DNA of 64,000 bases from Tenacibaculum mesophilum (GTDB lineage Bacteria > Bacteroidota > Bacteroidia > Flavobacteriales > Flavobacteriaceae), in contig NZ_CP032544.1 of NCBI RefSeq assembly GCF_003867075.1, positions 2,412,001 through 2,476,000 on the forward strand, read 5' to 3'. The notes below the pieces were generated by a model. The model did no database searches and was not told the origin of the DNA. It saw only the letters and a program-made list of their open reading frames with translations. Numbering within the stretch: the first letter of the stretch is position 1; the number at the start of each line of letters is the position of its first letter. The position numbers were made by a program, and so were the translations under genes. Shown here one piece after another: positions 32,902 through 44,161 of this stretch.

Positions 32902-33048
32902 TAGTACAAACATACGCAAACCTGCACGAATAACCATTTTTTTAAGTATTTTTGAAACAATTCTTTTAAGAAATCACATAAAATCAAACCGCGATTAATT
33001 TTACACTTCTCTTATACAATTAGTAAAAATTAATTTTAAAACATATTT

Positions 33049-34227
33049 ATGAAGTCTGATTTATTTCAAGCGCCAGATTATTATCAAGTAGACGATTTAT
33101 TAACTGATGAACATAAACTTATTCGTGATACAGCTCGTGAATGGGTTAAGAAAAACTTGTCTCCAATTATAGAAGAATATGCACAACGTGCTGAGTTTCC
33201 AAAGGAATTAATTAACGGATTGGCAGAAGTGGGAGCTTTTGGATCTTATATCCCTGAAGAGTACGGAGGTGCTGGGTTAGACCAAATTTCTTACGGGTTA
33301 ATTATGCAAGAGCTAGAAAGAGGTGATAGTGGAATTCGATCTACTGCTTCAGTACAGTCTTCTCTTGTTATGGGGCCTATTTATAACTACGGAACGGAAG
33401 CTCAACGACAAAAATATTTACCAAAATTAGCTTCTGGTGAATGGATGGGGAGTTTTGGGTTAACAGAACCTAATCATGGTAGTAACCCTGGAGGAATGGA
33501 GACTAAGTTTAAAGACATGGGAGACCATTACTTGTTAAATGGAGCAAAGATGTGGATTTCAAATGCACCAATTTGTGATGTAGCAGTTGTATGGGCAAAA
33601 AATGAAGAAGGACGTATTCATGGTTTGATAGTAGAACGTGGTATGGAAGGTTTTTCTACACCAGAAACTCACAACAAGTGGTCGTTAAGAGCCTCCATTA
33701 CTGGGGAGTTAATTTTTGATAATGTAAAAGTTCCAAAAGAAAACTTATTACCTAATAAATCTGGGTTAGGAGCACCATTGTTGTGTCTTGATTCTGCACG
33801 TTATGGTATTGCTTGGGGTGCTATTGGTGCTGCAATGGATTGTTACGATACAGCGTTACGCTATGCGAAAGAACGTACACAATTTGGAAAACCAATAGGA
33901 CAGTTTCAGTTACAACAAAAAAAGCTAGCGGAAATGATTACCGAAATTACCAAAGCACAGTTGTTAACATGGCGATTGGGAGTATTAAAAAATGAGGGTC
34001 GTGCAACATCTGCTCAAATATCTATGGCGAAACGAAACAATGTGGACATGGCATTAAAAATAGCACGTGAAGCAAGACAAGTGTTAGGTGCAATGGGTAT
34101 TTCTGGAGAATACTCAATTATGAGGCATGCAATGAATTTAGAAAGTGTAATAACCTACGAAGGAACGCACGATGTACATTTATTAATCACAGGATTGGAT
34201 ATCACAGGATTAAACGCATTCAAATAA
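33049..34227 (+). CDS. Acyl-CoA dehydrogenase, glutaryl-CoA dehydrogenase-like
   Basis: A 392-residue FAD enzyme of the acyl-CoA dehydrogenase family. It has the substrate/FAD loop GSFGLTEPNHGSNPGGMET, WISNAPICDVAVVWAK, RERTQFGKPIGQFQL-like block (AKERTQFGKPIGQF) and the catalytic Glu in VITYEGTHDVHLLI near the C-terminus. The YEGTHDVH context and overall length fit glutaryl-CoA dehydrogenase, which oxidises and decarboxylates glutaryl-CoA in lysine and tryptophan breakdown. Other short-chain substrates are possible. It has its own transcription unit opposite rnpA. Confidence 0.9.
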   Translation: MKSDLFQAPDYYQVDDLLTDEHKLIRDTAREWVKKNLSPIIEEYAQRAEFPKELINGLAEVGAFGSYIPEEYGGAGLDQISYGLIMQELERGDSGIRSTASVQSSLVMGPIYNYGTEAQRQKYLPKLASGEWMGSFGLTEPNHGSNPGGMETKFKDMGDHYLLNGAKMWISNAPICDVAVVWAKNEEGRIHGLIVERGMEGFSTPETHNKWSLRASITGELIFDNVKVPKENLLPNKSGLGAPLLCLDSARYGIAWGAIGAAMDCYDTALRYAKERTQFGKPIGQFQLQQKKLAEMITEITKAQLLTWRLGVLKNEGRATSAQISMAKRNNVDMALKIAREARQVLGAMGISGEYSIMRHAMNLESVITYEGTHDVHLLITGLDITGLNAFK

Positions 34228-34233
34228 AAAGAA

Positions 34234-34286
34234 GAAGAAGCACTCAAACGTTAAACCACTAACACATTATTAAAGAGTGCTTCTTC
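34234..34286. terminator. Long-loop hairpin between convergent genes
   Basis: GAAGAAGCACTC (34234-34245) pairs perfectly with GAGTGCTTCTTC (34275-34286) across a 29-nt loop. It starts 6 nt after the stop codon of the dehydrogenase and may stop transcription from both sides; the loop is long for a classic terminator. Confidence 0.5.
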
Positions 34287-34311
34287 AATCAACTATTAAA
34301 ACTAAATTTAC

Positions 34312-34446
34312 CTACTCTTTCTTCTTGCCACCATTAACAAGAATTAAAAGAGCGGTTATTAAACCTATACAAACCAAACCGAAAATAACCATCATAATGG
34401 TTCCGTTTGTCCAAGATACCATTGGGATGTTCATTAATTGTACCAT
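34312..34446 (-). CDS. Small single-pass membrane protein, 44 residues
   Basis: An ATG at 34444-34446 opens a 44-codon frame to TAG at 34312. The product begins MVQLMNIPMVSWTNGT, has one strongly hydrophobic helix (about residues 17-38, IMMVIFGLVCIGLITALLIL) and ends in the charged tail NGGKKKE. The purine-rich AAGAAGAA lies just before the ATG. Outside-in topology with a cytoplasmic lysine tail is expected. I recognise no family; the clean TM-plus-basic-tail design and ribosome-site context make it a credible gene. Confidence 0.68.
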   Translation of the reverse strand: MVQLMNIPMVSWTNGTIMMVIFGLVCIGLITALLILVNGGKKKE

Positions 34447-34546
34447 TTCTTCTTATACTTTACTGTCTCAAAAGTACAAGCATAGTTTAAGTAAAAACAT
34501 GATTTTTATCAGGATTTTGAAAAAAGAAGATATTTTTTTAAATAAT

Positions 34547-35101
34547 TTAAGAAGATGTTTCTTCTTTTAATAAAGAATCAAAGCCATCGATACTAGTTTG
34601 GTTTCTGTCATTCCAATATTGTTTAATTCCTTCTTCACCTTTTTCAATAGCCCAATCATTTAATTGATTTCGTTCTCCTTGGTATTCATAAAAAGGAATA
34701 GACATTCCACAAGAGGTTTGTACACTTTCAACAGACACAATAAATATTTGACGAGTACCTGGAAAATTAGGAAACAACTTGACATAATTCTCCCATTTAT
34801 TATAAGTTGGAAGAATTTCTTCTGCCCTTCCGTATAGTCTTAGTATGTTTGGAGCTCCTTCAAAAGCACAAAACATAATTGTTATTCGGTTATCAGCTAA
34901 CAAATGTGCAGAGGTTTCGTTACCGCTTCCTGTAACACTTAACCAAGCTACTGTATTTTCGTTAAGTATCCTAAAGGTATCCATTCCTTTAGGAGAAAGA
35001 TTAATTCGTCCTTCTTTTGCTGCTGTAGCAACAAAAAAGAGCTTTTGTGCTTCAATAAACTGTTGAATTCTAGTTGTTATTTTATCGTAAAACTTTGCCA
35101 T
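34547..35101 (-). CDS. Pyridoxamine 5'-phosphate oxidase-like (split-barrel flavin) protein
   Basis: A 184-residue FMN split-barrel protein. The N-terminal block FVATAAKEGRINLSPKGMDTFR and NRITIMFCAFEGAPNILRLYGRAE match the PNPOx-like family of general flavin or F420-type reductases. SVQTSCGMSIPFYEY is the typical C-terminal segment. It is not true PdxH, which needs a longer substrate-binding C-terminus. The actual substrate is unknown. It lies 11 bp downstream of glpK in the same direction. Confidence 0.87.
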   Translation of the reverse strand: MAKFYDKITTRIQQFIEAQKLFFVATAAKEGRINLSPKGMDTFRILNENTVAWLSVTGSGNETSAHLLADNRITIMFCAFEGAPNILRLYGRAEEILPTYNKWENYVKLFPNFPGTRQIFIVSVESVQTSCGMSIPFYEYQGERNQLNDWAIEKGEEGIKQYWNDRNQTSIDGFDSLLKEETSS

Positions 35102-35112
35102 GATTTTTATTT

Positions 35113-36597
35113 TTAATCAATCCAATCTTTAGTACGTTCAACAGCTTTTTGCCAAGTACGGTATAATTTTTCTCTTTTTTGTTTAGAGAAAGAAGGAGTA
35201 AATGTTTTATCTATTTTTCTTTTGTTAACAATATCGTTTTGTTGCCAAAAACCAACACAGAAACCGGCCAAATAAGCAGCTCCCATTACGGTGGTCTCAA
35301 TTTCTTCAGGACGCTCTACAGCTACATTTAAGATATCTGCCTGAAATTGCATCAGTAAATTATTAGCACATGCTCCGCCATCTACTTTTAAAGAAGAGAG
35401 TTGAAGCATGCTATCTTTTTGCATAACATCTAAAATATCTTTGGTTTGATAAGCTAATGATTGTAATGTGGCTTTAATTAAGTGATTTTTTCCTGTATCA
35501 CGAGTCAAACCAAAAACAGCACCTCTAGCGTACATATCCCAATACGGAGCGCCCAAGCCAGCAAAAGCAGGAACTACGTAAACAGGGTTTTCTTCGGTAA
35601 CTTCTTCAGCAAAAAGTTCACTTTCCTCTGCATTATTGATAATTTGTAGTCCATCTCGTAACCATTGAATTGCTGAACCAGCAACAAAAACACTTCCTTC
35701 AAGAGCGTAATACACTTTGTTGTTAATTCCCCAAGCAATTGTAGAAATTAAACCGTTTTCAGAGTATTCTAAGTTTTCACCTGTGTTCATTAACATAAAA
35801 CACCCTGTTCCGTAGGTGTTTTTTGCTTCTCCTTTTTTAAAACATGCTTGTCCAAATAAAGCAGATTGCTGATCTCCTGCTATTCCAGCAATTGGAATTT
35901 GAACTCCCTCTAATTCGTAGTTTCCAAAATGAAAAGATGAGGGTTTTACTTCAGGTAACATTGAAATTGGAATATTTAGTTCTTTTATTAAAGTTTCATC
36001 CCAACACAAGTTTTTTATGTCGTATAGCATGGTACGTGAGGCATTACTATAGTCTGTTGCATGAACTTTTTTATTGGTTAAGTTCCATAAAAGCCAAGAA
36101 TCAATAGTTCCAAATAACAAATTTCCTTTTTCAGCTTCTTTTTGAGCTCCCTTTACATGATTTAAGATCCAATGAATTTTAGTTGCAGAAAAATAACTGT
36201 CAATTACCAGTCCAGTAGTTTTACGCACATAGTTTTCGAGTCCAGTTTCTTTGAGTAACTCACAAGTATCAGCTGTTCTTTTATCTTGCCAAACAATAGC
36301 ATTGTATATTGGTTTACCTGTGTTTTTATTCCAAACTACAGTTGTTTCACGCTGATTAGTAATACCTATTCCTGCTATTTGTGAAGGTGATATTTGAGCC
36401 TGCTCAATAGCTTGTTGTAAGGTTTTTAACTGAGTTTGTAAAATTTCATTAGCATCATGTTCTACCCAACCAGGTTGTGGAAATATTTGTTGAAACTCTT
36501 GTTGAGTTTTTGCTATAATCTTTTCCTCTTTATTAAGAATTACGGTACGACAACTAGTTGTTCCTTGGTCTAGAGCAATAATATATTTTTGAGTCAT
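35113..36597 (-). CDS. glpK: Glycerol kinase
   Basis: The 494-residue FGGY kinase phosphorylates glycerol to glycerol 3-phosphate. It has [14 protein letters not shown] at the N-terminus (phosphate 1 loop), [19 protein letters not shown], the FGGY signature region [26 protein letters not shown], and the C-terminal [19 protein letters not shown] adenosine motif. Length is standard. No glpF or glpD is adjacent. It probably forms a two-gene unit with the PNPOx-like gene. Confidence 0.96.
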
Positions 36598-36653
36598 TTA
36601 GGCATAAAATGATTGAACGCCTAATTTACAATTTTAGTAATGGTAATAAAAAA

Positions 36654-36678
36654 AACCTTCTAGAATTTCTAGAAGGTT
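36654..36678 (-). terminator. Terminator of short unit A (33-residue peptide gene)
   Basis: A 12-1-12 palindrome AACCTTCTAGAA-T-TTCTAGAAGGTT is followed on the minus strand by a long U run. Exactly the same 25 bp occurs at 36946-36970, closing unit B. Confidence 0.85.
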
Positions 36679-36706
36679 TACACGTTTAAGTTTGGTTAAT
36701 TAACTT

Positions 36707-36808
36707 TTAGTGTCTTAGAGCATATCCAGCACCTTTACCGAATTCGGCTAGAACTGAAAGTAAAGTGTTAAAACCTCTGCTCATTTTACGTAATAGTAGT
36801 TTCCCCAT
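36707..36808 (-). CDS. 33-residue cationic amphipathic peptide (unit A)
   Basis: ATG at 36806-36808 opens a 33-codon frame ending TAA at 36707. The peptide begins MGKLLLRKMSRG, continues FNTLLSVLAEF and ends GKGAGYALRH. It has five Lys/Arg plus a His against one Glu, and could form an amphipathic helix. There is no signal sequence or Gly-Gly leader. It has a dedicated promoter (36867-36932) carrying paired CGGAA repeats and a dedicated terminator (36654-36678), which is strong support for a real gene. I recognise no family. It could be a signal, a bacteriocin-like or membrane-acting peptide, or a small regulatory protein controlled by the adjacent two-component system. Confidence 0.65.
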   Translation of the reverse strand: MGKLLLRKMSRGFNTLLSVLAEFGKGAGYALRH

Positions 36809-36866
36809 TTTTAAAATGATTTAATTAATTCCCCTTTAATTAATTGTCATTAAATAATGAACATGT

Positions 36867-36932
36867 CAAATATATGCTGATAATCAGGGGTATAAAAAGG
36901 GATTTCCGAAGTTAAAAGTGCAATTTTCCGAA
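36867..36932 (-). promoter_or_regulatory. Activator-type promoter A with CGG direct repeats, 22 bp apart
   Basis: On the minus strand TTTCGGAAAA and CTTCGGAAAT place CGG at 36930-36928 and 36908-36906, exactly 22 bp apart. ATCCCTTTTTA follows the second repeat. The -7 box TATATTTG (36874-36867) starts exactly 34 bp after the second CGG. There is no TTG at -33, which suggests that an activator is needed. Confidence 0.75.
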
Positions 36933-36939
36933 ATAGCAT

Positions 36940-37016
36940 AAAAAAAACCTTCTAGAATTTCTAGAAGGTTCATTATTCCCCTTAAATGTCTTTTTCCAAT
37001 TAATCTTGAAAAGAAG
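36940..37016 (-). ncRNA. Predicted short ORF-less RNA B, about 75 nt
   Basis: The segment runs from the expected start point of promoter B to its terminator. It contains UUUAAGGGGAAU, like the leader of unit A (UUAAAGGGGAAU), and then goes straight into the shared hairpin, as if the peptide ORF of unit A had been deleted. The only ATG reads into the hairpin, so coding is unlikely. Nucleotides 37002-37014 are perfectly complementary to 13 nt of RNA C. Existence of the transcript is inferred from promoter and terminator only. Confidence 0.5.
36946..36970 (-). terminator. Terminator of short unit B
   Basis: The palindrome is identical in all 25 bp to that at 36654-36678, with a U run on the minus strand. 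Confidence 0.82.
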
Positions 37017-37022
37017 ATGCCA

Positions 37023-37088
37023 CAAATGTAAAGAGAGATTAAAGGTTAAAAAAGGGTATTTCCGCAAAAAAACGTGTGGTTTTCCGCA
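37023..37088 (-). promoter_or_regulatory. Activator-type promoter B with CGG direct repeats, 22 bp apart
   Basis: TTGCGGAAAA and TTGCGGAAAT on the minus strand place CGG at 37086-37084 and 37064-37062. ACCCTTTTTTA follows. The -7 box TACATTTG (37030-37023) starts exactly 34 bp after the second CGG, the same geometry as promoters A and C. No -33 TTG. Confidence 0.75.
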
Positions 37089-37144
37089 AGAGAAAAAATA
37101 AGTCAATTTTACAATAGCATATTTTAGGGCGAGATAGGTAGCAT

Positions 37145-37176
37145 AAAAAAGCCTTTAAATATTTAAAGGCTTTTTT
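37145..37176 (-). terminator. Terminator of short unit C
   Basis: AAAAAAGCCTTTAAAT pairs with ATTTAAAGGCTTTTTT in a perfect inverted repeat with U run on the minus strand. Confidence 0.82.
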
Positions 37177-37222
37177 TACATTCTCTCTCTTTTCAAGATT
37201 CTTCCCAACAATGGTTTGAATT
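37145..37222 (-). ncRNA. Predicted short RNA C, about 75 nt
   Basis: The segment lies between promoter C and its terminator. It has no ORF longer than a few codons after the predicted start point; it ends its single-stranded part with AGAGAGAGAAUGUAA, a start codon directly followed by a stop. The segment complementary to plus 37188-37200 (AATCTTGAAAAGA on the RNA) could pair with RNA B. Transcript inferred from flanking signals only. Confidence 0.45.
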
Positions 37223-37228
37223 CCATTG

Positions 37229-37294
37229 CGAAATTACTGTTTAGTTGTAATTTGTAAAATGGGATAACCGCAAAAATAAATGTGTATTTCCGCA
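37229..37294 (-). promoter_or_regulatory. Activator-type promoter C with CGG direct repeats, 22 bp apart
   Basis: TTGCGGAAAT and TTGCGGTTAT on the minus strand place CGG at 37292-37290 and 37270-37268. ATCCCATTTTA follows. The box TAATTTCG (37236-37229, one mismatch to TAnnTTTG) starts exactly 34 bp after the second CGG. The site begins 15 bp after the response regulator's stop codon. Confidence 0.68.
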
Positions 37295-37308
37295 AAAAGA
37301 GGTTAAGC

Positions 37309-37986
37309 TTAATCTATAATTCCTAATTCTTTTGCTTTTAATACCAGGTCTGTATTATTATTGGCTTGTAAGTCTGTTCTTAGTTTAGATAGTTTGCTTT
37401 CTATGGATCTGACTTTTATTAATGATCCATCGTCCTTTTTAATTAAGCCTTCTAAGTTAGAAATTTTAGAATGTTTAGGTAGCTCTTTTAAAATTTGGAT
37501 GGCAATATCATCCATTTGTATTTCAACTAAAGCCCTTTTTAAGAGTTTTTGGTGAATTTCATGCGTATAGTATATTTCACCTTTTAACATTTTTTGAATA
37601 GCAAAGGTTAGTTCATCTGTGCTACACTTTCCCTTTAAAATATAGGCAGAAGGGCTTAAATTATGTATAACATTAAAAATTCTGTTTGTTTCAGAGTGTC
37701 CTGTAATTACACCTACTTTAATAGGAATTGCTTCTTTAAGTATAGATTTTATAAAAGCTTCTCCTCCATCTAAAATAACATTTTTGTTTTGGTTGTCAAA
37801 ACTCAAGTCGGTAAAAACGATATGAAATGGATTTTCGCTTAAACTTGATTTTATTTTAGAAAAAGCTTCATCGCATGAATTAGCTGTTTCAATTTCTAAG
37901 TTATCTATATCTTTTAGATATGAAAGAATTCCTTCCAAAATCAATTGATGATCATCAACTAAAAGTATTTTTGTTTGTCCAGCCAT
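37309..37986 (-). CDS. Response regulator with receiver and divergent LuxR-like DNA-binding domain
   Basis: A 225-residue regulator. The receiver starts KILLVDDHQLILEG with acidic pair Asp11/Asp12, phospho-acceptor Asp60 in IVFTDLSF, Thr in VGVITGHSETN and Lys in YILKGK. The C-terminal 70 residues (DDIAIQILKEL, KVRSIESKLSKLRTDL, TDLVLKAKELGIID) follow the LuxR/NarL plan but lack the usual SxxTVxxH recognition-helix signature, so the DNA target should differ from common NarL sites. Its start overlaps the kinase gene by 32 bp. The three CGG-repeat promoters immediately downstream are the natural candidate targets, which is inference. Confidence 0.85.
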   Translation of the reverse strand: MAGQTKILLVDDHQLILEGILSYLKDIDNLEIETANSCDEAFSKIKSSLSENPFHIVFTDLSFDNQNKNVILDGGEAFIKSILKEAIPIKVGVITGHSETNRIFNVIHNLSPSAYILKGKCSTDELTFAIQKMLKGEIYYTHEIHQKLLKRALVEIQMDDIAIQILKELPKHSKISNLEGLIKKDDGSLIKVRSIESKLSKLRTDLQANNNTDLVLKAKELGIID

Positions 37987-39814
37987 TTAAGGGTATTTGA
38001 ATACTGGTTTGGGTTCCTTTACCTACTTCACTATTAATAGTTAATTTACCATTTAACTCTTCAATGCGTTCTTGTAGGTTTTGTAAACCAATTCCTTTTT
38101 TATTAACGGTGGTATTAAAGCCAATACCATTATCAATAATACCCAAATGTACGTATTTTTTACGTACAGAAAAATTGATAGTTATTTTACTCGCTTTTGC
38201 GTGTTTTTTACAGTTCTGTATACTTTCGCGAATACTTAAGTAAAGTAAACGTTTAATAGAATTATTAATTGTCGTCCAATCGTAGTTTTGCAATCCATTC
38301 ACTTTTATTTTAAAATCAGGTTCAAAATAATCACTCACTAAATTGATAATTTGATTTTTAAAGGAAACTTTATCAAAACTAACACTACTTAGTTGATGTG
38401 ATAAATTACGCACATTTTCTTTTACTGCATCTAATTTTTGAGCTTCCTCTAATAAGTTAGATTTCTCTAATTTACGATGTAGTAAACGTAAATCACCAGC
38501 AACTTCATCATGTAAAGATTTAGCTATTTGTTTACGTTCATGTTCTCTTGCCTGAATTCTTTCTAACTGGGCTTGATAGAGTAGTTTTCTTTTTCTGTTA
38601 AAATAAAACAGTACTCCTACTCCAAATAACAATAAACTAAGAACGAACAATAACCAACCTATAGTTTTTTGTTGTTTGTGTTGAAGTATTTCTGCCTGTT
38701 TTTTCTCGTTTTCAGTTTTTAAAACAGAGTTTTCTTTTTCTTTTTTATCCGTTTCATATCTAATTTTAGCAAATTGATTTTTTAACCTGCGTTCATTTTG
38801 GAATAGACTATCATTTAAGGTAATATACTCTTCTAAATATTGTTTTGATTGTTCTCCGCTAGTTAAATCTGAAAGGTTTTTTAAAGCTTCTAACCATTTT
38901 TTATTGTTGTGGGTTTGTTCGGCATATTTTAAAGCTTCGCTAGAATGGTGTTGAGCTTTTTTTAGTTGATTAAGATTTTTGTAATAATCTGCCAAGTTTA
39001 TATGTGTTGTGCTTAATTCTGCAAAATCATTTTCTTCTTTCCTTATGCTGAGAACTTCATTATATTGTTTTAGCACATTTTCTTTTTTACCCAATAAAAA
39101 ATTACTAGCAGCTAAATTTTCTAATAACAAAGCATATTGTATTGGATACTTTTCTTTAATACTATCTTTTGATAATCCTTTTTTAAAAAGAGAAATAGCT
39201 TTTTTATACTGTCCTTTACTTTGATAAAAAAAACCTAAATTATTAATAATGTATAAATAACCAGTGTTTTTTTTGTTTATTTTATTATAAGTTAATGCTT
39301 TGTTGTAGTATGATAAAGCTTCGTTTTGTTGTTTCAATTCTTCCGAAACAATTCCTAAATTATTATAAACACTTTCCAAATAAATAACAGAATTGATAGG
39401 TTCTAAGTATTGTAAAGCTTCAATTAAACTTATTTCACTACCTAAAAAATCTTTAGCTTCTTTTTGTAAAATAGCTAAACTTAATAAACGCCTTCCGACA
39501 GCTAAAGAATCATTGATTTTTTTAGAGATATCTTTTGAAAGATGATAATAGTAAAAAGCACTATCGTTAGTATAAGTAAGTTTATTTTGTAGGGCTTTAA
39601 AGTGAAAGTATTTGGCAAGTAGAATAGAGTCATTAGTTCTTTTGTATAAAGAATCAACCTGTAAGGTGACTGTATTTAATAATGCAAGGTTTTTATCAAA
39701 AAATGCCTGCCTTCCTGATTCTATTAATGTATCTCTTTTAGAAAAATAATCCTTATTTTCCTGAGAAAATACAAAGGAAGAACAAAATAGAATAATGTAA
39801 AGGAAGTTTTTCAT
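37955..39814 (-). CDS. Sensor histidine kinase with periplasmic TPR domain (HisKA_3 type)
   Basis: A 619-residue kinase. The chosen start MKNFLYIILFCSSFVFSQ (39814) gives a clear signal peptide; the frame upstream of it is out-of-frame overlap with the 38-residue peptide gene and a terminator. Residues about 25-330 are TPR repeats (SEELKQQNEALSYYNKAL, SKGQYKKAISLFKKGL), followed by coiled coil, a membrane helix near 385-407, a HisKA_3 segment with His435 in SLHDEVAGDL, and HATPase with NxxKHA-type N-box NCKKHAKAS, DNGIGF and GIGLQNL. TPR domains commonly bind peptides, so a peptide ligand is a reasonable guess. It pairs with the overlapping regulator. Confidence 0.9.
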   Translation of the reverse strand: MKNFLYIILFCSSFVFSQENKDYFSKRDTLIESGRQAFFDKNLALLNTVTLQVDSLYKRTNDSILLAKYFHFKALQNKLTYTNDSAFYYYHLSKDISKKINDSLAVGRRLLSLAILQKEAKDFLGSEISLIEALQYLEPINSVIYLESVYNNLGIVSEELKQQNEALSYYNKALTYNKINKKNTGYLYIINNLGFFYQSKGQYKKAISLFKKGLSKDSIKEKYPIQYALLLENLAASNFLLGKKENVLKQYNEVLSIRKEENDFAELSTTHINLADYYKNLNQLKKAQHHSSEALKYAEQTHNNKKWLEALKNLSDLTSGEQSKQYLEEYITLNDSLFQNERRLKNQFAKIRYETDKKEKENSVLKTENEKKQAEILQHKQQKTIGWLLFVLSLLLFGVGVLFYFNRKRKLLYQAQLERIQAREHERKQIAKSLHDEVAGDLRLLHRKLEKSNLLEEAQKLDAVKENVRNLSHQLSSVSFDKVSFKNQIINLVSDYFEPDFKIKVNGLQNYDWTTINNSIKRLLYLSIRESIQNCKKHAKASKITINFSVRKKYVHLGIIDNGIGFNTTVNKKGIGLQNLQERIEELNGKLTINSEVGKGTQTSIQIPLNGWTNKNTFS

Positions 39815-39830
39815 AGAGTAGTTATAAAAT

Positions 39831-39862
39831 AAAACCATTACTTTTCCAAAAGTAATGGTTTT
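39831..39862 (-). terminator. Terminator or attenuator between the 38-residue peptide gene and the kinase gene
   Basis: AAAACCATTACTTTT and AAAAGTAATGGTTTT form a perfect 15-bp stem with a 2-nt CC loop, A and T runs at both ends. It lies 38 nt after the peptide's stop and 17 nt before the kinase start. No separate kinase promoter fits between, so kinase transcription probably depends on readthrough. Confidence 0.8.
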
Positions 39863-39899
39863 TAAACTTATGTTGTGTGCCAAATGTAATTTTTTGGCT

Positions 39900-40016
39900 C
39901 TAATCACCTCCGTCACTTCCTGTTGCTCCACCAGTATCACTACCTCCTTCAGTAATTTCAGTATCTCCACCAGGGCTTAAACTCATTGCTGTTTCTTTTA
40001 AGTACTTGTTTTCCAT
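39900..40016 (-). CDS. 38-residue Gly/Asp/Thr-rich peptide upstream of the kinase
   Basis: ATG at 40014-40016 opens 38 codons to TAG at 39900. The peptide has a short charged head MENKYLKETAMSLSP and a tail GGDTEITEGGSD followed by TGGATGSDGGD, with nine Gly and four Asp among residues 16-38 and no hydrophobic signal. The head-plus-small-residue-tail form recalls leader/core RiPP precursors, but no modifying enzyme is nearby. TTATTTTG at 40045-40038 is a one-mismatch -7 box. It is followed by a perfect terminator and then the TPR kinase. A signalling or scaffold role is inference. Confidence 0.62.
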   Translation of the reverse strand: MENKYLKETAMSLSPGGDTEITEGGSDTGGATGSDGGD

Positions 40017-40135
40017 ATTAAATAGGGTTTTTAATTACAAAATAACTCTTGGGGGATGGGGTAATCAAGTGCCTAATATAGTAGGTTTTTAGGATAAATT
40101 CAAAAATTTAACACTCTACTTTAAAAGAATGATAT

Positions 40136-40192
40136 TGTCATTACGAATCTTTCGACTGTCGCTAAAGACAGGCTAAAGTGAAGCAATCTTTG
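40136..40192. repeat. Degenerate interspersed repeat of the 'GTCATT...GAAGCAATCT' type
   Basis: The sequence reads GTCATTACGAATCTTTCG, then GACTGTCGCTAAAGACAGGC with an internal inverted repeat CTGTC/GACAG, and ends GTGAAGCAATCTTT. The ends resemble GTCATTGCGA...GAAGCAATCT elements scattered in Bacteroidetes intergenic DNA. A shorter relic is at 50589. The rest of the gap from 40017 to 40248 holds only the peptide gene's upstream region. Confidence 0.5.
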
Positions 40193-40248
40193 AATTATGA
40201 ACTCTAAATAAGTAAATTACTTAGTTATTATTGTTGCTAATAATGATG

Positions 40249-40779
40249 TTACTTTTTCATTTTAGTAAACAAATCCCATAAAACCACACCACAACTCACA
40301 GAAATATTTAATGAGTGTTTGGTTCCTAATTGCGGAATTTCAATACAAACATCAGAAGCAGAAACAACCTTTTGTTGTACACCTTTTACTTCATTTCCAA
40401 ACACTACTGCGTATTTTTGGTCAATTTCAGGAGTAAAAGTATCTAACATTGTACTATTTTCTGCTTGTTCTATAGATAAGATCTTTACGTTTTCTGCTTG
40501 TAATTTTTCAACCAAGTCTATAGTATTTTCAACATATTCCCAATCTACAGATTCAGTGGCACCTAAAGCAGTTTTATGAATTTCTTTGTTAGGGGGCGTA
40601 GCAGTGATACCACACAAGTAAATTTTTTCAATCAAAAAAGCATCCGAAGTTCTAAAAACAGAACCTACGTTATTCAAACTACGAATATTATCCAATACTA
40701 CAATGATGGGAGTTTTGTTAGTTTGCTTAAACTCTTCAACTGTTTTCCTGCCTAGTTCGCTGTTTTTTAATTTTCTCAT
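40249..40779 (-). CDS. SpoU/TrmH-family RNA 2'-O-methyltransferase
   Basis: A 176-residue SPOUT enzyme. Motif 1 is IVVLDNIRSLNNVGSVFRTSDAF, motif 2 VVFGNEVKGV, and motif 3 IEIPQLGTKHSLNISVSCGVVLWDL with the SAM-binding knot. This short form lacks the N-terminal RNA-binding extension of RlmB and resembles TrmH-like enzymes acting on tRNA or rRNA ribose. The exact nucleotide is unknown. It diverges from mutS. Confidence 0.92.
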   Translation of the reverse strand: MRKLKNSELGRKTVEEFKQTNKTPIIVVLDNIRSLNNVGSVFRTSDAFLIEKIYLCGITATPPNKEIHKTALGATESVDWEYVENTIDLVEKLQAENVKILSIEQAENSTMLDTFTPEIDQKYAVVFGNEVKGVQQKVVSASDVCIEIPQLGTKHSLNISVSCGVVLWDLFTKMKK

Positions 40780-40883
40780 AAAGTGGTTTTCAGGTTCAAA
40801 AGTTTAAAGTTGTGGATAACTTGAAACAAAAGAAACTCTAAACTTTTCTATCTTCGCAAAACTAACCCAAAAAATCTAGAAAC

Positions 40884-43493
40884 TTGGCAAAAACAAAGGC
40901 AAAAAAGGTAACTCCATTAATGCAGCAGTATAACGGAATCAAGGCAAAATATCCGGATGCGATGTTATTATTTAGAGTAGGCGATTTTTATGAAACCTTT
41001 GGAGAAGATGCTGTAAAAGCGTCAGAAGTTTTAGGTATTATTTTAACCAAAAGAGGAAGTGGCAGCGAAAGTGAAACAGCATTGGCAGGGTTTCCGCACC
41101 ATTCTTTAAACACGTATTTGCCTAAATTAGTAAAATCTGGATTGCGTGTTGCTATTTGTGATCAGTTAGAAGATCCAAAAATGACTAAGAAGATTGTGAA
41201 ACGGGGAGTGACGGAATTGGTAACTCCTGGAGTTGCGTTGAACGATGAGGTATTACAATCGAAGTCGAATAACTTTTTAGCAGCCGTTCATTTTGGGAAA
41301 AAGCTATTAGGAGTTTCGTTTTTAGATGTGTCAACTGGAGAATTCCTCATTGCACAAGGAAATGAAGAGTACATCGATAAGCTTTTACAAAACTTTGCGC
41401 CAAGTGAAGTTTTGGTAGAAAAAAAATACAAGCAACGATTTTTAGAAGCTTTTACCAATCGTTTTCATGCTTTTTATTTGGATGATTGGGTGTTTCAAAA
41501 AGAATATGGTGATGAATTACTTCGAAATCATTTTAAGGTAAAAACGTTAAAAGGATTTGGAGTTGAAGAGTTAGAATATGGAATTGTGGCTGGAGGTGTA
41601 GCAATGTACTATTTATCGGAAACACAACACAACAAAATAGAGCACATACAATCTATTAGCAGAATTGCGGAAGATAATTATGTGTGGATGGATCGCTTTA
41701 CCGTAAAAAACTTAGAGTTATACGGAGGTAATTCTGTGAATTCGGTTTCGTTATTAGATGTAATCGATAAAACGATTTCTCCAATGGGAGGGAGATTGTT
41801 AAAACGTTGGTTAGCGCTTCCGTTAAAAGATTTAGACCAAATTCAGCAGCGACACGAATTAGTGAAATTTTTAATTGATAACGATACTTTTTCTGAAACT
41901 GTAACCTACCAATTAAAACAAATTTCTGATATCGAACGATTGATATCGAAAGTTGCGACAGGAAAAGTATCTCCAAGAGAGGTCATCTTGTTGAAAAATT
42001 CGTTAAAAGCGATTCTTCCTATAAAAGAATCCGCAGAAAGCAGCGAAAACGCTGCCGTTAGGTTATTAGGAGAAAAAATTAATACTTGTGATGAATTAAT
42101 TGATAAAATTACCGAGACTGTTTTAGAAGAAGCCCCTGTAAATATAAATAAAGGAAATGCGATTGCAAACGGAGTTTCAGAAGAGTTAGATGAATTGCGT
42201 AACATTTCAAACTCTGGAAAAGAGTATTTAGATACGATGCTAGCTCGTGAAACAGAACGTACAGGGATTCCGAGTTTAAAAATTGCGTTTAATAATGTTT
42301 TTGGATACTATATTGAAGTTAGAAATACGCATAAAGATAAAGTTCCTGAAGAGTGGATTCGTAAGCAAACTCTAGTGAATGCAGAGCGTTACATTACTGA
42401 AGAATTAAAAGAATACGAAGCAAAAATTTTAGGAGCAGAAGAGAAAATTCAGCAATTAGAAACGGAGATTTTTGCCAAGTTAGTACAGTACATTATAGGC
42501 TTTGTACAACCAGTACAACAAAATGCACAAAATGTAGCTAAGATTGATGTGTTGCAATCTTTCGCAACCTTAGCTACCGAGAATAATTATGTGCGCCCTT
42601 TAATGGACGATAGTACCGATATTGAAATCAAAAATGGTCGCCACCCGGTTATTGAAAAACAATTACCAATAGGCGAAGAATACATAGCGAACGATGTGGT
42701 GCTGAACCGTAATCAGCAACAAATTATCATGATCACAGGTCCTAACATGTCTGGTAAATCAGCAATTTTACGTCAAACAGCTTTGATTGTATTATTGGCA
42801 CAAATGGGAAGTTACGTTCCTGCTCAAAATGCTCGAATAGGTATGGTGGATAAGATTTTTACAAGAGTAGGTGCGAGTGATAATATTTCGATGGGAGAGT
42901 CGACATTCATGGTTGAAATGAATGAAACCGCATCGATCTTAAATAACATTTCTGATCGTAGTTTGGTGTTGTTAGATGAAATTGGACGTGGAACATCTAC
43001 CTATGACGGAATTTCTATTGCTTGGGCAATTTCGGAATACTTACACGAACACCCATCGAAAGCAAAAACACTATTTGCAACGCATTATCACGAGTTAAAC
43101 GAAATGACTTCCACGTTTGAACGTATTAAGAACTTTAATGTATCGGTAAAAGAGCTAGATAATAGTATTATTTTCTTACGTAAGTTAGTAGCTGGAGGAA
43201 GTAATCATAGTTTTGGAATTCACGTGGCGAAATTAGCAGGAATGCCAAGTATGGTAATTCATAGAGCAAACAAAATTCTAAAAGAGTTAGAAAACTCACA
43301 TTCACACAAGGAGGTAAAAGAAACCTTGAAAGAAGCACAGCATGAAGATATGCAAATGAGCTTTTTTCAGTTAGATGATCCGTTGTTAGAAGATATTCGA
43401 GAAGAAATTTTAACTACAAACATCGATACACTAACACCTATTGAAGCTTTAATGAAGCTGAATGAAATAAAACGAATGTTAACGAAGAAGTAA
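40884..43493 (+). CDS. mutS: DNA mismatch repair protein MutS
   Basis: The 869-residue protein recognises mismatches and recruits MutL. The mismatch-binding FYE motif is present ([12 protein letters not shown], near residue 38), followed by connector, lever and clamp domains and the ATPase with [15 protein letters not shown] and [14 protein letters not shown], ending in a short dimerisation helix. No ATG fits the start: TTG at 40884 gives [17 protein letters not shown], matching the family N-terminus, whereas the first internal ATG would remove it. TATCTTCG at 40849-40856 is a near-consensus -7 box. Confidence 0.96.
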
Positions 43494-43501
43494 TAGGTTA
43501 A

Positions 43502-44161
43502 TTATTCTCTATTTTCAAACTCACAAATTTTAAAAAACTCATTACGAACAGCTAAATCATTAAAACTTCCTCCGTACTCAATAGTTGTTGTGTAACTATT
43601 CTTGTCTTTAATTCCGCGAGAAGAAACACATAGGTGCTTTGCATTCACCAGTACAATTACATCTTCCGTTTCCAAAGTTTCTTGTAAATCTGTTAAGATT
43701 TGTAAACATAATCGCTCTTGTACCTGTGGTCTGTGTGAATAATAATCTACTAAACGATTAATTTTCGAAAGCTCGATAACCCTATTTTTTGGAATATAAC
43801 CAATATGTGCATAGCCACTAATAGGAAGAAAATGGTGTTCACATGAAGAATCGATAGTAATGTTTTGTTCCACTAACATTTTACTATAACCGTATTTATT
43901 ATCAAAAGTAGAAACTTTGGGTTTATTAGCTGGGTTCAATCCATAAAACAACTCTTTAACATACATTTTAGCAAAACGATAAGGTGTCCCAGACAAACTA
44001 TCATCTGTTAAATCCAAACCAAGCTCCTCCATTATTTTTGCAAAATGACCTTGAATATTTACAATCTTTTCTTCGTCTGATTTATCAAAAGCGTTTGGTG
44101 TTAAAGGTGTTTTAATATTTGTTAAAATGTGATTATCACCTATGTAATCATGCTTGTTCAT
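43502..44161 (-). CDS. folE: GTP cyclohydrolase I
   Basis: The 219-residue enzyme turns GTP into dihydroneopterin triphosphate, the first step of folate (and queuosine) synthesis. The zinc ligands are in SSCEHHFLPISGYAHIGY (Cys and His) and AKHLCVSSRGIKD (Cys). The catalytic block NRLVDYYSHRPQVQERL is intact. Length is normal. It converges on mutS with an 8-bp gap and is followed upstream by merC. Confidence 0.96.
   Translation of the reverse strand: MNKHDYIGDNHILTNIKTPLTPNAFDKSDEEKIVNIQGHFAKIMEELGLDLTDDSLSGTPYRFAKMYVKELFYGLNPANKPKVSTFDNKYGYSKMLVEQNITIDSSCEHHFLPISGYAHIGYIPKNRVIELSKINRLVDYYSHRPQVQERLCLQILTDLQETLETEDVIVLVNAKHLCVSSRGIKDKNSYTTTIEYGGSFNDLAVRNEFFKICEFENRE

Follow-up and report, generated by a model that had tools for sequence, protein, structure and literature searches.

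What do the TPR-type sensor kinases of Bacteroidota sense, and how does the copy number of a small RNA (sRNA) tune a response? Both questions are raised by one locus of Tenacibaculum mesophilum, in which a TPR kinase and a response regulator stand between the gene of a short Gly/Asp-rich peptide and a tandem array of three short transcription units. The locus lies in a stretch of 64,000 nucleotides (contig NZ_CP032544.1, positions 2,412,001 to 2,476,000), hereafter called the window, and positions are given in window numbering. On the minus strand, the order is Gly/Asp peptide gene (40016-39900), hairpin (39862-39831), kinase (39814-37955), regulator (37986-37309) and the three units (37294-36648). 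We consider it fairly probable that these parts form a self-contained signalling cassette with an sRNA array as its output. In the proposed mechanism, a kinase with periplasmic TPRs would phosphorylate a NarL-like regulator, which would bind two CGGAAATCC-like half-sites placed 22 base pairs (bp), or two helical turns, apart and just upstream of the -10 box. The regulator would then turn on the tandem units beside its own gene as well as one distal unit. Most units would yield sRNAs of ~75-130 nucleotides, members of a single paralogous family that share a (G)GGGA core and end in a terminator, whereas one unit type would yield a conserved cationic peptide of 33 residues. The Gly/Asp peptide encoded beside the kinase would be the most likely input. 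That a dedicated two-component system governs an sRNA array is the part that we hold to be well supported, and quite likely correct, on the comparative evidence given below.

The locus anatomy is real and conserved. An initial annotation, made from the letters of the window, had described a cassette of a peptide open reading frame (ORF), a hairpin, a TPR kinase, an overlapping regulator and three terminated units, and all of these are present in the sequence. The comparative set comprised 57 sequences (the window and 56 further loci), 35 of them Tenacibaculum-type and 22 other (Polaribacter-type); one locus on a cut contig, L060, was excluded from the unit scan and count. The arrangement is kept in these relatives: 31 of the 35 Tenacibaculum-type sequences and 9 of the 22 others (40/57 in total) carry a Gly/Asp-type ORF immediately before the kinase gene, and units were found in 53/57.

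The three units of the window share one promoter grammar, consisting of a pair of CGG boxes spaced by 22 bp and a TAnnTTTG-like -10 box at a fixed distance; the matching activator-type promoters of the initial annotation are borne out in this respect. It had also described the boxes as paired CGGAA repeats. The 22-bp spacing is found in all three units, but the repeat is not strictly CGGAA, because the second box of unit 1 reads CGGTTA. A full promoter model was built as a 68-bp weight matrix (TGCGGAAATCCACA...TTGCGGAAATCCCCTTTT...TACATTTG), which located 142 units at 1-8 per locus, found none in L039, L056, L057 and L062, and scored above 10 bits at 0 of 829,464 control positions. A held-out model was trained on 57 units from 17 loci in which the regulator shares no more than 78% identity with that of the window, these training units having been located with the full model. 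It ranked the promoters of unit 2 (37021..37088; 61.8 bits), unit 3 (36865..36932; 44.9 bits) and unit 1 (37227..37294; 42.1 bits), all on the minus strand, as the top three of all window positions on both strands, the fourth position scoring -14.6 bits, and it recovered 81 of the 82 held-out units. The relatives keep the 22-bp CGG-CGG spacing and a fixed distance to the -10 box, and the first unit begins at most 29 bp from the stop codon of the regulator in 52/53. The usual promoter consensus carries a TTG at -33. The unit consensus lacks this TTG and box 2 abuts its place, and for these reasons we read the unit promoters as activator-dependent, as in activator-type promoters generally. A simple CGGAA-N15-19-CGGAA pair was rejected as a genome-wide signal, giving 14 matches against 14 in the control.

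What these promoters would transcribe is mostly RNA. With starts assumed from the -10 boxes, unit 1 would give a type A sRNA (37145..37225, minus strand) with a TTGGGAAG motif and a terminator, and unit 2 a type B sRNA (36940..37019, minus strand) with a 5' hairpin, ATTTAAGGGGAA and a terminator; neither contains a conserved ORF. Unit 2 is matched by covariance model R1 by construction, being a member of that model. Unit 3 is of type P, with a predicted transcript (36648..36863, minus strand) made up of a leader with AAAGGGGAATT, the mRNA of the 33-residue peptide and a terminator. Three short terminated units on one strand, the last encoding a cationic peptide, had been described before and are seen here; the outputs are mostly predicted short RNAs and not peptides.

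Among the 142 units, a terminator-like hairpin ends 134 of the predicted transcripts, and the 8 units in which no terminator was found (5 with GGGA, 2 without, 1 masked) were excluded from transcript counts. GGGA occurs before the last 30 nucleotides in 134/134 delimited transcripts, compared with a mean of 23.8 and a maximum of 35 in 200 shuffled sets. The 33-residue peptide is encoded by 19 units. An ATG-started ORF of at least 15 codons is present in 1 of the 99 delimited units of types A-C (1/81 for types A and B) and in 2 of the 16 Polaribacter-type units. When the best GGG site of each RNA is set against the mean of its other Gs, a comparison biased toward the motif, the unpaired fraction is 0.74-0.79 for the motif and 0.25-0.39 for other Gs in types B, C and P, and 0.67 and 0.48, respectively, in Polaribacter-type RNAs. 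The type B core ATTTAAGGGG is near-invariant in 17 aligned sequences, the type B terminator stem shows two-sided changes at 6/11 pairs, and the type B 5' hairpin, tested per sequence, is better than shuffles by more than one standard deviation (z < -1) in 23/24; RNAalifold on a MAFFT alignment did not recover this 5' hairpin. Given near-absent ORFs, GGGA in every delimited transcript, terminators and shared type B structure, the bulk of the output is predicted to be one paralogous sRNA family. At gathering score, Rfam gave a single match in the window, a transfer RNA.

The reach of the promoter pattern beyond the array was examined in 57 genomes (35 of the same genus, 22 other) with a strict box pattern drawn from the window sites and at most one mismatch. 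The own genome gave the three array units and one distal site, with 0 matches in the control. Among the 35 same-genus genomes, 8 contained matches, 46 in all, of which 40 fell in arrays, 5 at one distal place and 1 before a 122-residue ORF, with 1 match in the control; the 22 other genomes gave 7 matches versus 11 in the control. At the distal place, a further sRNA of the same make as those of the array lies between the same ORFs in L106-L110. In 95 genomes, the type B covariance model found this distal RNA additionally in G002, G003, G049 and G055; the unit promoter of this RNA scores 69.4 in G049 (strong) and 15.9 in G002 (weak), and none was recognised in G003. Two weak R1 matches outside arrays that were inspected (46.8 and 44.2 bits) had no unit promoter. 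As the strict pattern in the own genome matches the array and one distal sRNA alone, the apparent regulon consists of a paralogous sRNA family and the 33-residue peptide.

The two proteins that would drive these promoters are the kinase and the regulator. The kinase (37955..39814, minus strand; 619 residues from the Met at 39814) matches TPR and HATPase_c above the Pfam cut-offs and HisKA_3 below its cut-off. Its TPR sensor should be periplasmic, because a signal peptide can be read at the N-terminus and the TPR and kinase parts are divided by a hydrophobic stretch. The regulator (37309..37986, minus strand; 225 residues) overlaps the kinase gene by 32 nucleotides and matches Response_reg above the Pfam cut-off, with D60 in the receiver; an alignment of 24 sequences shows no variation at Asp12, Asp60, Thr95 and Lys118. 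No Pfam helix-turn-helix family matches its C-terminal domain. A regulator profile aligned residues 4-218, C-terminal domain included, to VraR of the Protein Data Bank (E 1e-6), so that the divergent DNA-binding tail of the initial annotation is probably NarL-like. The nearest regulators of named organisms, at 95-96% identity, are those of Tenacibaculum discolor, T. larymnensis, T. sp. 1_MG-2023 and T. gallaicum.

Some observations weigh against this account of the array. In the structural model of the regulator, most of the receiver is good, and residues 151-225 have block means of 45-67 in the predicted local distance difference test, that is, low confidence. Many regulator-bearing genomes of the genus give no match to the strict pattern, which therefore does not cover the family, and the regulon may be wider or shifted. 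Two units in which no terminator was found, L041_1 and L055_1, have no GGGA in the printed stretch, and in the comparison of unpaired fractions the type A motif is no more unpaired than other Gs (0.59 vs 0.55).

The input of the kinase is the second question. The Gly/Asp peptide (39900..40016, minus strand; 38 residues) is a candidate ligand, with a leader of ~18 residues containing PGG and a Gly/Asp-rich core; neither Pfam nor NCBIfam gave a match. A PGG within the first 23 residues is present in 17 of the 40 peptides, and Gly plus Asp make up 54% of residues beyond position 18. The sensor is far more variable than the kinase part and the regulator. Mean pairwise identity in 30-residue kinase windows is 0.28-0.70 at residues 31-330 and 0.65-0.83 from residue 421, compared with 0.80 for the regulator. 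In the sister loci L019 and L020, the regulators are 99% and the kinase parts 96% identical, whereas sensor residues 30-110 are only 25% identical.

Partial Mantel tests were made on 31 loci, with the peptide-less and all Polaribacter-type loci left out. Given the regulator, the peptide core follows the sensor (r=0.298, p=0.006) and is unrelated to the kinase part (r=0.006, p=0.48), the leader follows the kinase part (0.325, p 0.0005) and not the sensor (0.08, p 0.22), and the co-variation of the core peaks at kinase residues 30-89 (r=0.323, p=0.004), figures to be read in the knowledge that such tests are liberal when rows share ancestry. A peptide-less clade (T. dicentrarchi, T. piscium and T. 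finnmarkense) also shows a diverged sensor: against L016, its residues 121-300 are 0.23-0.49 identical, whereas most of the kinase part is at 0.71-0.89 (one window 0.58) and the regulator at 0.80.

The liberality of the Mantel tests already counts against the peptide as input, and so do several further results. The raw correlation of the whole peptide is highest with the regulator (0.71), followed by the kinase (0.66) and the sensor (0.55). In 18 close pairs with nearly equal regulators, the core co-varies neither with the N-terminal block (rho -0.05) nor with the sensor (0.00), and for 12 of 31 loci the nearest core and the nearest sensor block come from one and the same locus (7/31 for the kinase). 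Where the nearest sensor block and the nearest kinase belong to different loci (22 cases), the core sides with the sensor neighbour in 14 and with the kinase neighbour in 8. The four T. dicentrarchi, T. piscium and T. finnmarkense loci, which keep 1-2 units, have neither the peptide nor the 33-residue gene, and no peptide was detected in 9 of the 18 judgeable Polaribacter-type loci (L052, L057, L058 and L062 were not judgeable). Kinase-regulator pairs without both peptides and repeats, which the initial annotation had named as the finding that would speak against it, thus occur in part: peptides are missing in these Tenacibaculum and Polaribacter-type loci, but the four Tenacibaculum loci retain their units. 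On the strength of these absences, the Gly/Asp peptide is not obligatory.

With the partial Mantel co-variation on one side and the close-pair test on the other, we regard the peptide as kinase input as an evenly balanced proposition. The chief rival, to which we give a somewhat smaller but still serious chance, is that the kinase senses the envelope or osmotic state and that the peptide is a secreted or accessory (e.g., modified) fellow traveller. This would fit the peptide-less loci, which retain the kinase, the regulator and mostly the units, and the failure of the close-pair test; moreover, a Gly/Asp composition is unusual for a pheromone, and no modification or export gene was recognised by reading the ORFs that adjoin the peptide gene. 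Against it stand the retention of the peptide immediately upstream of the kinase in nearly all Tenacibaculum-type sequences, the core-sensor co-variation and the diverged sensor of the peptide-less clade. More broadly, reading the ORFs at 33000-44000, most of them without a family search, recognised no export or processing gene. Elsewhere, the own genome contains three C39-peptidase matches, and C39 peptidases could serve export of the Gly/Asp peptide.

The peptide gene has a promoter-like element of its own, TTG-N20-TATATTAG (40073..40103, minus strand), without regulator boxes, which we take to be its promoter on the consensus assumed here. No unit-type promoter was found upstream of the gene in the window or in those control stretches of relatives that cover the place. 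The hairpin that the initial annotation had placed before the kinase is indeed a perfect inverted repeat (39831..39862, minus strand) with 15-bp arms, a CC loop and a T-rich stretch behind it, and it reads as the terminator of the peptide gene; comparable hairpins lie between the peptide gene and the kinase in many of the relatives inspected.

The array RNAs would act by base pairing. The predicted leader of the peptide mRNA holds two C-runs, CCCC and CCCCC (40051..40061, minus strand), a possible site of pairing with GGGG. CCCC occurs within 60 nucleotides upstream of the peptide start in 18 of the 31 peptide-bearing Tenacibaculum-type sequences. The predicted duplex between the peptide leader and the locus's own units outdoes shuffles in the 18 CCCC loci (mean z -1.69) but not in the 22 without (0.35); the shuffles preserve C content, and the greater length of the 33-residue mRNA (75 nucleotides vs shorter sRNA bodies) favours that mRNA. 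Among Tenacibaculum-type loci, the 33-residue gene is present in all 18 with CCCC and missing in 12 of the 13 without. CCCC as a strict partner of the gene was rejected, as the gene also occurs in L032, L112 and L113, where CCCC is missing, and a tree-aware pair test gave p=0.5. Pairing of the array sRNAs with the peptide mRNA is speculative. In L026, L031 and L034, three of the four peptide-less Tenacibaculum loci, TCCCCTTTTATTTT precedes the start codon of the kinase and could pair with the GGGGA core.

Base pairing with other targets also meets a difficulty in the genome counts. Complements of the type B core, taken as ATTTAAGGGGAA, number 35 in the own genome and 38 in the control, and for want of enrichment the complement was rejected as a target signature. 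The complement sites inspected, one each in G000, G022, G027, G028 and G055, reveal no single conserved target: the site in G028 immediately precedes an ORF whose start resembles a signal peptide, those in G022 and G027 lie early in one shared frame, and that in G000 is inside an ORF on the opposite strand. A doubtful alternative is that the sRNAs, instead of base pairing, use the repeated (G)GGGA to titrate an RNA-binding protein in an Rsm/Csr-like manner. Such titration would suit many copies that share one short G-rich motif, as well as the lack of enrichment of complementary sites. CsrA itself was rejected as the protein: PF02599 was found in 0 of the 20 genomes searched, with 3 of 14 control genomes positive, although a different protein is possible.

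If base pairing and peptide sensing are taken together, the system could be a Gram-negative pheromone system with pherotypes, in which the sensor block would be exchanged between strains along with a secreted peptide. The whole output of the regulator would then be an expandable array of (G)GGGA sRNAs and small peptides, and the array RNAs, with the 33-residue mRNA leader foremost, would pair with the C-runs close to the 5' end of the pheromone mRNA and complete a feedback loop at the RNA level. We consider this extension rather unlikely as a whole.

The 33-residue gene itself (MGKLLLRK...EFGKGAGYALRH; 36707..36808, minus strand), aligned with 19 relatives, is constrained as a protein. Seven columns are invariant in the 20 sequences, third codon positions vary most, and the median ratio of non-synonymous to synonymous substitution rates is 0.24 (77 pairs, 13 genes). 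Pfam gave no match for it, nor for the Gly/Asp peptide. Homologues occur in 11 of 95 genomes, in some of them in several copies. An array that mainly produces this peptide, as a bacteriocin-like or membrane-active product, with the other units as decayed copies of peptide units, is in our opinion improbable. Some genomes do contain several 33-residue genes, and in one cluster five such genes each follow a unit promoter, but GGGA and a terminator are retained in the 99 delimited units of types A-C, often at loci where no 33-residue gene was found, and almost none of these units holds an ORF. The weakest rival, that the unit promoters serve another regulator or are always on and adjoin the two-component genes by chance or hitch-hiking, can draw on the weak or missing distal promoter in G002 and G003 but is likewise improbable in view of the closeness of the first unit to the regulator gene, the restriction of the strict pattern in the own genome and a 22-bp direct repeat that suits a dimeric NarL-type regulator.

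An sRNA array under its own two-component system would be nearest in logic to two known systems, described here from excerpts of their sources, and would work like these. In Streptococcus pneumoniae, CiaRH controls five highly similar csRNAs that target comC, the precursor gene of a peptide pheromone (PMC4507080). The likeness lies in one two-component system over multiple similar sRNAs, this control being predicted in the present case. The differences are an array directly behind the regulator gene, up to 15 predicted units, a peptide mRNA, a TPR sensor and a Bacteroidota host. In Listeria, all five LhrC1-5 copies depend on LisRK, and a repeated UCCC pairs with the target (PMC4132741, in excerpt). 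The locus resembles this multicopy sRNA in its short repeated motif, which is (G)GGGA and not UCCC, and its copies adjoin the presumed regulator. As in multicopy sRNA families, the predicted RNAs share a core, each with its own promoter and terminator, and the units share a common operator with the fixed 22 bp and a fixed -10 distance.

Other comparisons are with Bacteroidota. The nearest studied sensor build is FimS of Porphyromonas gingivalis, likewise a kinase with a periplasmic TPR sensor (predicted here), whose signal is stated to be unknown and possibly a polypeptide in the part of the source used; FimS-FimR controls FimA fimbriae (PMC11053733). The window kinase is not a FimS by the curated NCBIfam model, as it scores 57.5 bits and the cut-off is 600. 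Bacteroides thetaiotaomicron has 14 FopS sRNAs, paralogous and with a shared seed in a 5' single strand (FopS/GibS; PMC11697453), which resemble the array RNAs as paralogous Bacteroidota sRNAs with a shared motif; the excerpt of that source states no two-component control of the family. Rfp18 of Flavobacterium psychrophilum, the third stem-loop of which is predicted to pair with protease mRNAs (PMC9723704, in excerpt), is also a conserved flavobacterial sRNA with strong predicted structure, a likeness of description. Searches of open-access literature on sRNAs and peptide signalling in Tenacibaculum, Polaribacter, flavobacteria and Bacteroidetes gave no paper with an account of the locus in its title or the opening of its abstract, and the excerpts of PMC9153119 and PMC9723704 contain no description of it.

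A further comparison is with peptide-pheromone two-component systems of the Com/Agr kind. Like these, the locus links a small peptide gene to a kinase and regulator (in the 40 sequences counted above); the peptide gene does not carry the unit-type promoter that direct control by the regulator would involve, and indirect control is possible. If the proposal is true, Bacteroidota possess a two-component system dedicated to sRNA output, with 1 to 15 units between species, and the number of units may set the dose. The locus would also offer a candidate ligand for a TPR kinase, whereas the signal of FimS is given as unknown in the excerpt of PMC11053733. The largest arrays are those of L112 and L113, with 15 and 14 units at a threshold of at least 14 bits, some of them low-scoring. 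Higher-order repeats of ~500 bp in both arrays point to recent tandem duplication.

Several minor observations concern related genes and repeats. A paralogous regulator (27% identical) of the own genome (G000:C1:1560588-1564212) adjoins two frames with C39-peptidase matches, possibly a second peptide-linked system. A second gene of the 33-residue family lies at G000:C1:2125705-2125794 on the minus strand (L120 2300-2404) and also in L122-L125 and L127; it has no unit promoter and adjoins a gene named helicase-like by reading and a 120-residue ORF. In G035 (L121 2926-4466), six tandem homologues of the 33-residue gene lie ~5.6 kb beyond the regulator, and five of the six each follow a unit promoter. 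Beyond unit 3 of the window stands a gene that we take to be glycerol-kinase-like. Finally, a dispersed repeat of the type GTCATTACGA...GAAGCAATCT lies at ~40130-40192 of the window, between a TrmH-like gene and the peptide gene, and similar stretches were seen by eye inside the arrays of L013, L014, L023 and L061.

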